This document shows, piece by piece, positions 12,121 through 19,415 of a stretch of DNA of 43,223 nt (positions within the stretch are counted from its first letter, which is position 1; each line of letters begins with the position of its first letter). The DNA is from Bacteroidales bacterium. Lineage in GTDB: Bacteria; Bacteroidota; Bacteroidia; Bacteroidales; UBA12170. The stretch lies in the NCBI GenBank assembly GCA_021157585.1, contig JAGGWH010000032.1, positions 1 through 43,223 of the forward strand, in the 5' to 3' direction. The notes beneath the pieces were generated by a model. That model worked only from the letters and a program-made list of their open reading frames with translations. It made no database searches and was not told the DNA's origin. A program made the position numbers and the translations under genes.

Positions 12121-13803
12121 CTATTTCTTTTCGTTCACAGCAATAGCAGTACACTTTCTTTCTAGATGCTCTCTTTCGTACAAATTAGGTATTTCCAAAA
12201 GCAAAGCTTTTTGATAGGATTGGTATGCACTATCAATTTGCCCAAAATTTACATAGTAATCGCCTATTAATTCCCAAGTATAAAAAAAGTTGGGATTAAC
12301 TCCTGTAAATGATTCTAACACTTCTGAATTTACTGTTGAATTCTTTTCAATTGCGAACTCAATCTTCTTTCTTAATTTTTTATAGCTTAAGAATGATTTA
12401 TAAGTAGTTGATAGTTGTAATGTATCAGGAGCAATAACTTCTTGTCCGAAGTTCTCATCCATAAGCATAGAAGGATTTTTAAAAATTTCTTCAAGCGAAT
12501 AGGGTAAATAAGCTCCTAATTGAAATGGCTTAGTTGAAATCCATAGCTTCTTTTGCTCGGGTTTAAATAAGATAGAATGATGAGCAATAAACTGATTTAA
12601 AGCCAATTCATTTCCTAAACCAATTGACTTATTTTCAGCTCCATATGGATTTCTTAAAAAAGATACAAAATCATTCAAATCAAATGAAGTCTTTGTATTC
12701 AGGAGCTCCTCTACCCTTTCAAACCTTAGTCCGGTTGCATTTTCCCTAAGGTTTTCCTGATTCAATTTTTCATTAAATAAAACAGGACTTTGAAAATGAT
12801 TCGTTAGAATTTGTTCTGTTTTTGTTCCTGCTCTAAACAAGATGGTTGTATCAGGAGTTTTCTCAATTATAGCGGTTTGTCCATCTTCACTTGAACCAAT
12901 AAAAAAAGTTTCCGCAACAAAACTTGCACGTTTTTTTGCAATAGAATAAGCTTCATCAATTGTGGATGCATATTGAACAATTTCACGAGCAATAATAGAT
13001 ACTGGCGTTTTTGCCGTAAACGGGATTTCTGATTTAGCAGCATTCAAAGTAATGCTTAATCCTTGATTATTCATCCCCGAAACAACACCACTCATTCCTG
13101 ACCAAGAAAGCGATACGAAATTATATCCGCTATCTGGAGAGATAAACATAAGCACCTTATTCTCAGCGAATTTATCGCCTACATAGAAGTCAAAATTTCT
13201 TCCTATCAACAAAGTAGAATCTACAGAAAGACTATCCCAAACCGAGAAAGCAGTACAAGCAACTAAGTTAAGGTTTTGCATTGCATGCCCAATATCATGA
13301 GCAGCATGATAATTCAATTGACGCTCATAATTATCTCCAATAAAATCAAAACTATCATCGGCAAAAAGTGAAACCGCTTTAATTTCTTTTTGATATTCTA
13401 AAGGAATATAATCAGGCAAATTCCGATTCATAAATGAAGTAACATATTTCAGGAATTTCAAGTACTTTTCACTTGGAATCATTTTTTTTATCTGCTTAAC
13501 AAAAGCCTCTTCCTGAATAAACATCAATTCTTGAGAAAGAATTCCATGGCTGTATCCTATTTCTTCCGGACTTCCTTGTAAATACATCTCCCAGATTCCA
13601 TATGAATTCTTACGTAAGAAATTCTGCTTAAATAAAAAAGTGGAATCATTAAGTTTTGTTCTTTCTGAGCTTTTCAGTTGTTTCAAGTCCAATATCGGAG
13701 CTTCAATTTGAACAGCAAAATAAAAATAAATACTAAAAAGCACAGCAATTCCCAAAATTGGCAACAATAGCTTTAATAATATTTTTAGTACTCTTGAAAA
13801 CAT
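12121..13803 (-). CDS. C45-family autoproteolytic acyltransferase/hydrolase-like protein
   Basis: This 560-residue protein has an N-terminal membrane anchor (about 5-30). Its core is of the peptidase C45 / acyl-CoA:6-aminopenicillanate acyltransferase (Ntn-hydrolase) type. Cys183 in VACTAFSVWDS is the likely nucleophile freed by self-cleavage; GRNFDFY (201-207) and GMNNQGLSI (243-251) are the conserved segments after it. A TPR-like helical tail (about 505-550) contains YQSYQKALLLE. It follows the FAD oxidoreductase by about 30 nt on the same strand. Homologues of this kind occur in flexirubin/aryl-polyene clusters, where acyl transfer or hydrolysis is plausible. The substrate is not known. 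Confidence 0.75.
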   Translation of the reverse strand: MFSRVLKILLKLLLPILGIAVLFSIYFYFAVQIEAPILDLKQLKSSERTKLNDSTFLFKQNFLRKNSYGIWEMYLQGSPEEIGYSHGILSQELMFIQEEAFVKQIKKMIPSEKYLKFLKYVTSFMNRNLPDYIPLEYQKEIKAVSLFADDSFDFIGDNYERQLNYHAAHDIGHAMQNLNLVACTAFSVWDSLSVDSTLLIGRNFDFYVGDKFAENKVLMFISPDSGYNFVSLSWSGMSGVVSGMNNQGLSITLNAAKSEIPFTAKTPVSIIAREIVQYASTIDEAYSIAKKRASFVAETFFIGSSEDGQTAIIEKTPDTTILFRAGTKTEQILTNHFQSPVLFNEKLNQENLRENATGLRFERVEELLNTKTSFDLNDFVSFLRNPYGAENKSIGLGNELALNQFIAHHSILFKPEQKKLWISTKPFQLGAYLPYSLEEIFKNPSMLMDENFGQEVIAPDTLQLSTTYKSFLSYKKLRKKIEFAIEKNSTVNSEVLESFTGVNPNFFYTWELIGDYYVNFGQIDSAYQSYQKALLLEIPNLYEREHLERKCTAIAVNEKK

Positions 13804-15601: not shown

Positions 15602-16960
15602 ATGAAGAGATTATTCTATTTATCGTTAATACTGGGACTAATTCTGGTGAGTTGTAATAAGCCACCCGAAATCCCTAGTATTCAAGACGTTATTTTTCAA
15701 GCAACTACTAATACTTCGGGACTAAAATCTTCTTGTGATAATCCCATAGCTAACTTTGCACTAATCGAGATTGACGGGATAACTCAACAAGTAGGCGTGT
15801 TTTACTTAGACGACAAAATATATACCAATACTCTTAAGCTTGCTCCTGGTAACCATACACTAAACATGTTTGTTCTCGTTAACGATGGAGGGACTCCCGA
15901 TAATCCTGATGGAGATATTATTGTTCAGGCTGCACCACTTAGTGGTAACACTTTTGCAAATTTCGTAAGTAAACCCCTACCTTTTAACTTTAAAGTAGAT
16001 GCATTTTATAAAACAGAAATTCCAATTGAACTTTTATGTTATGAAGCCGCCGATTATGACGACTTTGGCTTCGCTTGGTTTAGTATTGAAGAAATAGCCG
16101 TTCGTGAGTTTTGCTTTTTTGGTGATATCTGTATAGATGATTATATGAGCTATACCGGTTCTCTATATGAGAATCAGCGTAATGGACTTCAGCACGATAT
16201 GCCTGCAATTTTTAAAATTGACGTTATACGGAATGACAATCTGTTAATTACTTACGATAATGCTGAATGGTATGGCGAAGGGCGTCCCTTATGTGTCGAT
16301 TACCCCGATTATTCAAACTATACCGATAATTACAAATTCGTTCTGTCTATACTGTTAAAGGAAGGTGAAGAGTTTAATTATGTTGAATTATATACTTGGG
16401 AAACAACAGATGCAGAACAATTACCTAATATCGGAAGTGATAATATATTAGATTTTGTTCTTGGAGACTGTGTCCCTGATGCCGATCTTATTATTCCTCC
16501 TATAGATGAGCCTACTCCTACTCCATTTACCGGTGAAGAAACCGCTTTTGCTTACGGTGGAGAAGAAAATGCATCTTGCTTTATTGAAGATGGTTTTGGT
16601 AACTGGGGATGGACAAATGGAAAATACAATGAAGGTGATTATACCTTAGAACTTTTAGCTGGAGTTGGTGACTGTGATCAAACAAAAGGTTATGACGTTG
16701 GAGAAGTTTTACTTTCCTACCATAATGGAAGCATTTCAGTAAGCTATAATGTTACTTCGACTTATGAATTACAAGCTGTTCAGCTTTATGTGGGCTATGA
16801 AAAATATCCTGAAAAAAATGGTACCCCAACAGTTGCTCCCGGACAATACACAATAATTGATGATGAGCTTAACTCAGGAACTACCAGCTATACATTTAAT
16901 TTGGACGGATTTAGTGAAAAAATATATATAATCGCACATGCAGATGTTTTAGGAAATTAA
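15602..16960 (+). CDS. Tandem paralogous lipoprotein 1, with secreted beta-rich C-terminal module
   Basis: This 452-residue protein has a lipoprotein signal peptide with lipobox LVSC, lipidated Cys18. Residues about 25-300 form a module shared with the two downstream genes: HYALIEID-like strand, GNHTL, PLPF..VDAFYK, ELLCYEA, FGFAWF, REFCFFGD, then LDFVLGDCVPDADL. Conserved cysteines suggest disulfides. The C-terminal about 150 residues, from TAFAYGGEENASCF through NWGWTNG and TVAPGQYTI to IYIIAHADV, are a separate beta-sandwich-like module. I have seen this pattern in other Bacteroidetes secreted proteins, but no function is known to me. The protein is probably exposed on the outer membrane or cell surface. 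It is the first gene of a three-gene plus-strand run. Confidence 0.75.
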   Translation: MKRLFYLSLILGLILVSCNKPPEIPSIQDVIFQATTNTSGLKSSCDNPIANFALIEIDGITQQVGVFYLDDKIYTNTLKLAPGNHTLNMFVLVNDGGTPDNPDGDIIVQAAPLSGNTFANFVSKPLPFNFKVDAFYKTEIPIELLCYEAADYDDFGFAWFSIEEIAVREFCFFGDICIDDYMSYTGSLYENQRNGLQHDMPAIFKIDVIRNDNLLITYDNAEWYGEGRPLCVDYPDYSNYTDNYKFVLSILLKEGEEFNYVELYTWETTDAEQLPNIGSDNILDFVLGDCVPDADLIIPPIDEPTPTPFTGEETAFAYGGEENASCFIEDGFGNWGWTNGKYNEGDYTLELLAGVGDCDQTKGYDVGEVLLSYHNGSISVSYNVTSTYELQAVQLYVGYEKYPEKNGTPTVAPGQYTIIDDELNSGTTSYTFNLDGFSEKIYIIAHADVLGN

Positions 16961-17019: not shown

Positions 17020-17952
17020 ATGAAAAAATTATTCTATTTATTTTTAATGGTCGGTCTAATAATCGTAAGCTGTAACAAGCCTGCAGATGTACCTGCTACA
17101 CAAGAAGTAGTTTTTAAAGCAACTACTGCCACTACCGGGTTAAAAGCAGGTGACTGCGACACTGAAGTTGCTCATTACGCTTTAATAGAGATTGATAATG
17201 ATATTCTTAAAGTAGATGTATTTTATTTAGAAGGAATGATCTACACTAACACTATTAAACTTTCTCCCGGAAATCATACAATTAAAAGTTTTGTACTTAA
17301 AAATGATAACGGAACACCAAACGATGATACCGATGACATCATTGTAAAAGCAACTCCTTTAATAGGTTCTGATTATGCCGGATTTGTTCAAAATCCACTT
17401 CCTTTCGACTTTAATGTTGATGCTTTTTATAAAGCTGAGGTAAATATTGAAATCCTTTGTTTTGAAGCTGCAGAAATTACTGACTTTGGCTTTGCTTGGT
17501 TTACTGTTAACGAAATTACAGTACGCGAACTTTGTTTCTTTGGTGACTTCTGTACAGATGATTATATGGATTATACAAACACATTATATGGTTCTCAAAC
17601 CTATGGTGTTCGTCACGATATGCCTGCTATCTTTAAAATAGACATTTACAGAAACAACACCTTTTTAATTAGCTACAATAATGAATACCATGCAGATGGA
17701 TCAGACTGGTTTGGTGAAGGAGCAGCTTTATGTGTGCAATATCCCGATTTTGAGAATGTTACAGACAATTACAAATTCGAACTTTGGGTTAAAGTTTTAG
17801 TTGGTAACTCTTTTGAATACAAGTTATTCCACACCTTTACAACTACCGATGCAGGACAATTAAATTCAGGAGCAGACAATATTCTTGACTTTGTAATTGG
17901 CGACTGTGTCCCTGATGCCGATTTAGTTTTACCTGCTTATTATAATAATTAG
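17020..17952 (+). CDS. Tandem paralogous lipoprotein 2, core module only
   Basis: The 310-residue protein has a lipobox at IVSC (Cys18) and the shared module of the triplet, ending GDCVPDADLVLPAYYNN with no C-terminal extension. Residues encoded by 17164-17555 are identical to those of the next gene. It lies 59 nt after lipoprotein 1 and 44 nt before lipoprotein 3 and is probably co-transcribed with them. The function is unknown. It may be a minimal or structural member of a surface assembly, but that is inference. Confidence 0.75.
   Translation: MKKLFYLFLMVGLIIVSCNKPADVPATQEVVFKATTATTGLKAGDCDTEVAHYALIEIDNDILKVDVFYLEGMIYTNTIKLSPGNHTIKSFVLKNDNGTPNDDTDDIIVKATPLIGSDYAGFVQNPLPFDFNVDAFYKAEVNIEILCFEAAEITDFGFAWFTVNEITVRELCFFGDFCTDDYMDYTNTLYGSQTYGVRHDMPAIFKIDIYRNNTFLISYNNEYHADGSDWFGEGAALCVQYPDFENVTDNYKFELWVKVLVGNSFEYKLFHTFTTTDAGQLNSGADNILDFVIGDCVPDADLVLPAYYNN
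17164..17555 (+). repeat. 392-bp near-identical block, copy A
   Basis: This block matches 18141-18532 with 4 differences in 392 nt, all at third codon positions and all synonymous. Outside the block the two genes diverge sharply, especially after CTTCTGTAC. It is the trace of recent duplication or gene conversion between the paralogous lipoproteins. Confidence 0.9.
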
Positions 17953-17996: not shown

Positions 17997-19415
17997 ATGA
18001 AAAAATTATTTTATTTATTTTTAATGGTCGGTCTGATTACAGTTAGCTGTAATAAGCCCGAAGAAATAGCTACCGAGCAAGAAGTAGTTTTTAAAGCGAC
18101 TACTGCCACTACCGGATTTAAAGCAGATGACTGCGACAATGAAGTTGCTCATTACGCTTTAATAGAGATTGATAATGATATTCTTAAAGTAGATGTATTT
18201 TATTTAGAAGGAATGATCTACACTAACACTATTAAACTTTCTCCCGGAAATCATACGATTAAAAGTTTTGTACTTAAAAATGATAATGGAACACCAAACG
18301 ATGATACCGATGACATCATTGTAAAAGCAACTCCTTTAATAGGTTCTGATTATGCCGGATTTGTTCAAAATCCACTTCCTTTCGACTTTAACGTTGATGC
18401 TTTTTATAAAGCTGAGGTAAATATTGAAATCCTTTGTTTTGAAGCTGCAGAAATTACTGACTTTGGTTTTGCTTGGTTTACTGTTAACGAAATTACAGTA
18501 CGCGAACTTTGTTTCTTTGGTGACTTCTGTACTAAATACTATAACGATTATGCCGGATCTCTTTACGAAGGTCAGGAAAGTGGCTTACGTCATGATATGC
18601 CTGCTATCTTTAAAATAGATATTTATAGAAACAACAATTTCCTAATTAGCTATAATAACGAAGAATGGTTAGGTGAAGGCGCACCATTATGTGTTCAATA
18701 TCCGGATTTTGAGAATGTAACTGACAATTATGAGTTTAGACTTTCTATCTTAGTTAAAGTAGGTATGAACTTTGAATACAAACATTTCTATACTTTTACA
18801 ACTACTGATGATGGAACGATTGCTAATATTGGTGATGACAATGTTTTAGACTTTGTTCTTGGAAGCTGTGTTCCAGATGCAGACTTAATTCTTCCTCCAT
18901 ATATGAACCTCCCTGCTAACGTAACTATGACAACAGGTAGTACTCATTCGCCTGGTAGCTTAGGAACCTATTTTGATATTACCCTTTCCGGAATAGGTGC
19001 CGGTTATGATATTGGAAATCAAACCTATGGTGTCTTTTGTGCCGATAAAAATACATCTATCGTATTGAATACAACTTATAATATGGATGTATACACTTCT
19101 TTATATCCAGACTTACTCCCGGGTGCTTTTGCCGCACAAAAAGACGTTCTTGATAATATTAACTGGTTGGGCAATAACCTATACCGTTATGATGGACATA
19201 CTTGGGCAGATATTCAAGATGCCGTATGGATGATATTAGGTCAAATTTCAACATCTTCAACTCCATTTGCAACTCAAATGGCTAGTGATGCTATGTTATA
19301 CGGTGATGGTTACATACCTCCAGTTGGTGGTTGGGCTGCTGTATTATTTGTAGATCCTACAGCCGATGATTATAATAAAGTATTACAATTACTTTTTACA
19401 CTTGTAGACCCTTAA
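17997..19415 (+). CDS. Tandem paralogous lipoprotein 3, with thioester-domain-like C-terminus
   Basis: The 472-residue protein has a lipobox at TVSC (Cys18), the shared module (about 25-300), and a different C-terminal module from about 304. That module contains TYGVFCADKN (Cys348) and WADIQDAVWMILG (Gln407, Trp411). The pattern (Y/F)C-x-(D/N) followed by a hydrophobic-Q-x-x-hydrophobic-W is that of thioester (TED/TQXA-like) domains, in which the Cys and Gln side chains form an internal thioester that can bind targets covalently. The Cys-Gln spacing of 59 is shorter than in Gram-positive adhesins but near that of related secreted proteins. The protein is probably surface exposed. A strong terminator follows the gene. 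Confidence 0.75.
   Translation: MKKLFYLFLMVGLITVSCNKPEEIATEQEVVFKATTATTGFKADDCDNEVAHYALIEIDNDILKVDVFYLEGMIYTNTIKLSPGNHTIKSFVLKNDNGTPNDDTDDIIVKATPLIGSDYAGFVQNPLPFDFNVDAFYKAEVNIEILCFEAAEITDFGFAWFTVNEITVRELCFFGDFCTKYYNDYAGSLYEGQESGLRHDMPAIFKIDIYRNNNFLISYNNEEWLGEGAPLCVQYPDFENVTDNYEFRLSILVKVGMNFEYKHFYTFTTTDDGTIANIGDDNVLDFVLGSCVPDADLILPPYMNLPANVTMTTGSTHSPGSLGTYFDITLSGIGAGYDIGNQTYGVFCADKNTSIVLNTTYNMDVYTSLYPDLLPGAFAAQKDVLDNINWLGNNLYRYDGHTWADIQDAVWMILGQISTSSTPFATQMASDAMLYGDGYIPPVGGWAAVLFVDPTADDYNKVLQLLFTLVDP
18141..18532 (+). repeat. 392-bp near-identical block, copy B
   Basis: This is the second copy of the block at 17164-17555, with four synonymous differences. It encodes the segment from EVAHYALIEID to CFFGDFCT, identical in both proteins. 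Confidence 0.9.

Follow-up and report, generated by a model that had tools for sequence, protein, structure and literature searches.

A divergent thioester-domain-like module at the C-terminus of a predicted Bacteroidota lipoprotein

The 43,223-nucleotide stretch of Bacteroidales DNA analysed here over its whole length, referred to in the following as the window, encodes a 472-residue lipoprotein with an N-terminal lipid anchor and a C-terminal module resembling the thioester domains (TEDs) of Gram-positive adhesins. This architecture, the conservation of four signature residues and the homology of the module to TEDs were established computationally. The module is quite probably a divergent, thioester-forming, class I-like TED on an outer-membrane lipoprotein, working as described below, although we are less confident of surface capture when it is taken alone.

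In a 2015 survey, TEDs and internal-thioester adhesins were exclusive to Gram-positive bacteria (PMC4450167), and later papers place them in the same setting. No description of a Bacteroidota or lipid-anchored TED was found in the open-access literature. TED sequences were already detectable in Bacteroidota, mostly in large proteins; the new element is a branch undetected by Pfam that combines an N-terminal lipid anchor, a short beta stalk and a C-terminal TED.

The lipoprotein gene and its array

The gene is the third of three genes arranged in tandem (Table 1). Its product begins with a lipoprotein-type signal (MKKLFYLFLMVGLITVSC followed by NKPEE) and terminates eight residues past Gln464. 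Its first 302 residues share 85% identity with the second gene and 63% with the first, and the C-terminal ends differ within the array, the first gene having an unrelated domain, the second none and the third the TED-like module. The first-pass annotation had proposed that a Bacteroidota lipoprotein ends in a possible thioester domain, and this proposal is well supported.

Table 1. Features of the lipoprotein gene and its tandem paralogues, with positions in the window.
Feature	Position	Strand	Basis
Paralogue, 452 aa, same stalk and unrelated C-terminal domain	15602..16960	+	Alignment
Paralogue, 310 aa, same stalk, without C-terminal module	17020..17952	+	Alignment
Lipoprotein with TED-like module	17997..19415	+	ORF; Cys18 invariant in 11 aligned proteins
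Lipoprotein signal peptide to predicted lipidated Cys18 (SC/NKPEE)	17997..18050	+	Sequence
N-terminal stalk-like module, residues 19–302, two predicted beta-rich domains	18051..18902	+	AlphaFold secondary structure; identity to two upstream genes
TED-like module, residues 303–472	18903..19412	+	Homologues, profile comparison, AlphaFold model, Foldseek of full-length model
Cys348 of FCAD, predicted thioester cysteine	19038..19040	+	Invariant; sole Cys of module
Gln407 of IQDAVW, TQxxPhiW-type Gln on predicted third helix, predicted non-bonding	19215..19217	+	Invariant; model helix 101–111; literature
Trp411 of IQDAVW helix motif	19227..19229	+	Invariant
Gln464 of VLQLLF, predicted thioester glutamine	19386..19388	+	Invariant; start of last predicted strand 162–166

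Between positions 12121 and 24548, the array is flanked by a C45-type autoproteolytic acyltransferase and a CrtI-like oxidoreductase on one side, by an MMPL-like transporter/acyltransferase/methyltransferase fusion on the other, and by a glycosyltransferase. These neighbours look like a lipid or pigment locus. The same neighbours and a three-gene array are retained in L010 (UBA12170), and L009 (GH48) has two module-bearing genes in tandem. No second stalk-bearing ORF was found in the distant relatives L011–L013, where the gene is single. The protein might belong to a lipid-anchored Gram-negative covalent capture family, in which a C-terminal thioester head is mounted on a stalk shared with neighbours that carry another head or none, making up a surface kit of exchangeable heads; we offer this tentatively, with somewhat less than even confidence.

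Homologues of the module

Five of the ten other genomes searched from the genus of the window contain the module, one of them in two copies, at 41–69% identity. Two further relatives, L011 and L012 (42–44% identity), were found in contigs of GTDB genomes, and the genus members, L011 and L012 all have both the stalk and the module. The module was absent from all 88 further genomes searched within the order, and the search of viral contigs, plasmids and phages yielded no relatives.

Profile A1, built from the seven genus members, was then run over 396 Bacteroidota genomes and gave remote matches at marginal E-values, including L016 (E = 1.1e-4) and L018 (E = 9e-4). Seven of the remote matches share the motif order (L014, L015, L016, L017, L018, L019 and L021). 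Four of these (L014, L017, L019 and L021) are short lipoproteins with the motifs WCID...NYLxN...IQxxIW...VQTVI, L015 is longer, and L016 and L018 extend into long proteins. Two more proteins, L043 and L044, came from a second search that covered 395 genomes of the class; their motifs are GNCVDL...VNYLIN...EIQAAIW...VQQSI. These two are secreted proteins of ≈370 residues with a TED-like motif set, and they are profile relatives of the window module (hhalign, 97%). Three candidates were rejected as false positives upon reading the proteins: a DXS/transketolase-like enzyme (L020), a tetratricopeptide/histidine-kinase-like protein (L022) and a response-regulator/GAF/kinase protein (L045). These false positives set the noise level of the profile searches at E near 0.005.

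Conservation of the signature residues

The alignment used in the following (A3) has 14 rows and omits L016 and L018, in which the Cys was misplaced in alignment A2. At identities down to ≈22%, six of the 165 columns of A3 are invariant: F24, C46, N87, Q105, W109 and Q162, corresponding to Phe326, Cys348, Asn389, Gln407, Trp411 and Gln464. Four of the six (Cys348, Gln407, Trp411 and Gln464) are TED residues, and 13 of the 14 modules contain exactly one Cys. The motifs FCADK (residues 347–351, including Cys348) and DIQDAVW (residues 405–411, including Gln407 and Trp411), with INWLGNN between them, had been picked out in the first-pass annotation; the ORF translation confirmed all of these calls, and Cys348 and Gln407, whose conservation the annotation had made a point to check, are both invariant in the 14 rows.

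Across the 14 homologues, the Cys motif reads FCAD, YCAD, YCGD or WCID (WCLE in L015), with Trp preceding the Cys in the remoter ones, and it falls at the end of a predicted strand (41–46). The helix motif, IQDAVW and its equivalents, lies on a predicted helix (101–111) and has the invariant Gln and Trp of the TED motif; the leading Thr is absent. The Gln motif of the last predicted strand (162–166) reads LQLLF, IQMIF or VQTVI, with the Gln invariant, in agreement with the TED motif. Its zeta position, which is hydrophilic in the consensus, is hydrophobic in the window's subfamily (Leu here).

The motif set is more than a chance occurrence. A pattern combining the three parts, [YFWL]C-x-[DNES] ... 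PhiQxxPhiW ... PhiQxPhi, has a single match when the window is translated in six frames (≈81,000 residues), and none when the module is shuffled 20,000 times or in 300 x 32 shuffled window ORFs. For Cys348, Gln407 and Trp411, conservation among the remote matches partly reflects selection, because these residues are rewarded by the profile search. The C-terminal Gln, by contrast, is outside the profile-matched stretch of L014, L017, L019 and L021, and all four nevertheless have it, so its conservation there is not caused by selection.

Assignment of the bonding glutamine

In characterised TEDs, the bonding pair consists of the Cys of the [YFL]C-Phi-zeta motif and a Gln from the last strand, where it is part of a weak PhiQ-zeta-PhiPhi motif. 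The helical TQxxPhiW motif contributes a Gln and a Trp that are inessential; most structures show these two in hydrogen bonds with the backbone of the Cys (PMC4450167, PMC6194298). The Cys–Gln spacing in class I is 153 in PnTIE (Cys94–Gln247) and 129 in CpTIE (Cys138–Gln267) (PMC4450167). In the window protein, the spacing is 116 residues for Cys348–Gln464 and 59 for Cys348–Gln407. Since DIQDAVW corresponds to the helical motif and VLQLLF to the strand motif, and in view of these spacings, the thioester is predicted to join Cys348 to Gln464 and not to Gln407.

The first-pass annotation had paired Cys348 with Gln407 and made no mention of Gln464. Its cysteine is retained in our prediction, but its glutamine is not: although Cys348 and Gln407 are both invariant, Gln407 is placed mid-helix by the prediction and belongs to the TQxxPhiW-type motif, the bonding Gln is elsewhere in characterised TEDs, and a spacing of 59 is far under the published 129–153. 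We consider a Cys348–Gln407 thioester very improbable.

The module might also be a TED-derived fold without a thioester, in which the lone Cys stays a free thiol, belongs to a metal or redox site or forms an intermolecular disulfide. A single Cys per module and the divergence of the family from Pfam TED would suit such a role. A thiol or disulfide would have no need for Gln464, however, and this residue is invariant, also in matches that were not selected on it; we consider this alternative very improbable.

Relationship to known thioester domains

Direct searches of the module against Pfam, NCBIfam and PDB sequences gave no match. The Pfam TED model matched neither the window nor any of the 14 members of A3, nor was there a match elsewhere in the window genome; such a match is a criterion of detection and not a property of the fold or its chemistry. 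L016, one of the remote A1 matches, reached 42.6 bits with the Pfam TED model (E = 8.7e-11), for which the cut-off is 22, and this cut-off was exceeded in 32 of the 396 Bacteroidota genomes, mostly in large proteins.

The modules were also compared by hhalign with 22 Bacteroidota TED-type domains. The nine closest modules gave a probability of 85% (score 41.4) and all 14 rows 92% (score 46.9), whereas the best of 60 column-shuffled templates reached 24.3 and the reversed template 15.0. Scores were higher against the short lipoproteins (79.4, probability 97.7%; shuffles at most 17.7) and against L043 and L044 (66.6). In these alignments, Cys falls on Cys and QxxxW on QxxxW, and the last-strand Gln lies beyond the aligned stretch. 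The search against TED profiles that the first-pass annotation had suggested was thus negative when done directly with Pfam and positive by profile–profile comparison, above the shuffled and reversed controls. A PDB search with the A3 profile gave nothing but weak matches to BlaR1 (E = 0.02), which were discarded as noise; they cover neither the Cys nor the last-strand Gln.

An AlphaFold model of the module, made with A3, had a pLDDT of 83.9 and a pTM of 0.81. It consists, in order, of three strands, the third ending at Cys348, another strand, four helices and two strands, with Gln407 and Trp411 on the third helix and Gln464 at the start of the last strand. One helix comes ahead of a three-helix core, and a 12-residue linker runs from the last helix to the final strands. 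As modelled, this order fits the published descriptions of class I TEDs better than those of class II. In the model of the whole protein (pLDDT 76, pTM 0.59), two beta-rich domains come ahead of the module.

A Foldseek search of the PDB with the full-length model retrieved 6fwv, the TIE of B. anthracis (E = 1.1e-5, probability 1.00), a match that could be aided by the Ig-like stalk domains. It also retrieved 5a0n, a pneumococcal TED (E = 0.079, probability 0.87, TMt 0.41, rmsd 6.0), which, going by the model, is the TED-specific structural match and a modest one. The isolated-module model retrieved no TED from the PDB, despite its pTM, and it is in this domain-only negative that the structural argument is weakest. 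Structure prediction, another check named in the first-pass annotation, therefore agreed with a TED in element order and in the full-length matches, but not in the search with the module by itself.

If the resemblance were due to chance, the module being an unrelated beta/helix structure that happens to have C-x-D and QxxxW motifs, the negative direct searches of Pfam, NCBIfam and PDB sequences and the failure of the domain-only Foldseek search to find a TED would be expected. The profile–profile score, far over all 60 shuffles and the reversed control, the pattern of conservation and the retrieval of TED structures with the full-length model all argue against this, and we give it almost no weight.

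Proposed mechanism and surface placement

If the module is a class I-like TED, Cys348 on strand C and Gln464 on the last strand would condense after export, with loss of ammonia, into an internal thioester that is buried. Gln407 and Trp411 lie on a predicted helix, which would pack on the thioester and hydrogen-bond the Cys backbone. An amine, or possibly a hydroxyl, on the surface of a target could then attack the thioester, which would leave Gln464 covalently bound to the target and Cys348 freed as a thiol. The N-terminal lipid and the two beta-rich domains would serve as anchor and short stalk, with the reactive end away from the cell. In this way the protein could function as a covalent adhesin or capture device.

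The protein is predicted, as a likely case, to be displayed at the surface. The residues following the lipidated Cys18 are N-K-P-E-E. The lipoprotein export signal (LES) of Capnocytophaga is C-x-K-(D/E)2 (PMC5080379). C-N-K-P-E-E resembles it without being an exact match: the Lys at +3 fits and two acids are present, but the intervening Pro at +4 does not fit.

Alternatively, the TED fold and the thioester may form, but with a bond that is structural or slow, so that a ligand is bound without covalent capture. The thioester is largely buried in solved TEDs (PMC4450167, PMC6194298), and in the literature consulted a covalent target is documented for few TEDs. Both bonding residues are strictly kept in an otherwise variable module, as a reactive bond needs, although a structural bond would equally need them. 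We regard this alternative as rather unlikely and favour covalent capture.

Comparison with other thioester proteins

The module is similar to the class I TEDs of Gram-positive bacteria (SfbI, FbaB, CpTIE, PnTIE; PF08341) in its FCAD motif, corresponding to [YFL]C-Phi-zeta, its QxxPhiW helix motif, its C-terminal PhiQ-x-PhiPhi strand, its strand/helix order and the absence of a large insert before the last strands. Unlike these domains, it is not recognised by Pfam and is part of a Gram-negative lipoprotein. The layout is also inverted. In Gram-positive proteins, the TED nearly always stands at the N-terminus and the LPXTG anchor at the C-terminus, and in TIE adhesins an isopeptide/ester stalk lies between the two, whereas the window protein is anchored by an N-terminal lipidated Cys, has its TED-like module at the C-terminus and contains no recognised isopeptide or ester stalk domain.

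Outside the window's subfamily, the closest relatives are the short lipoproteins of ≈225 residues (L014, L017, L019 and L021), which share the motif order and the lipoprotein-type signal. Unlike the window protein, they have no two-domain stalk, and the TED is joined directly to the anchor; compared with the window module, fewer residues lead up to the NYLxN helix and more lead up to the last strands. The large Bacteroidota proteins with Pfam TED domains (L016, L018 and L023–L042) are from the same phylum, are linked to the module by profile and carry YCID and QxxIW, but their similarity to it is at the profile level only. In contrast to the window protein, they are mostly open frames of ≈490–2,260 residues in which the TED sits close to the N-terminus, and they represent other Bacteroidota families. 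In L016, the TED is followed by a DUF11 domain. In several of the long proteins (e.g., L024 and L036), the 75 residues that follow QxxIW contain no obvious Gln of the PhiQ-zeta-PhiPhi type.

Alpha-2-macroglobulin and complement proteins also use an internal Cys–Gln thioester for covalent capture, but have a fold other than that of TEDs and a contiguous Cys-x-x-Gln motif. No sequence relation between these proteins and the module was found.

The Pfam TED model overlooks the Bacteroidota lipoprotein branch of the family. The window module belongs to this branch and offers a Gram-negative test case: it is compact and purifiable, has a single Cys and inverted anchoring, and comes with a clear prediction of a Cys348–Gln464 bond. 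Confirmation of the bond would extend covalent attachment to the diderm surfaces of environmental bacteria.

Another type of Gram-negative anchor was seen in three short secreted proteins (L050, L051 and L054), which carry TED-like domains, with YCVDL ... LQAAIW, and a C-terminal PEP-CTERM-like tail. L050 scores above the Pfam TED cut-off, and L051 and L054 fall just under it.
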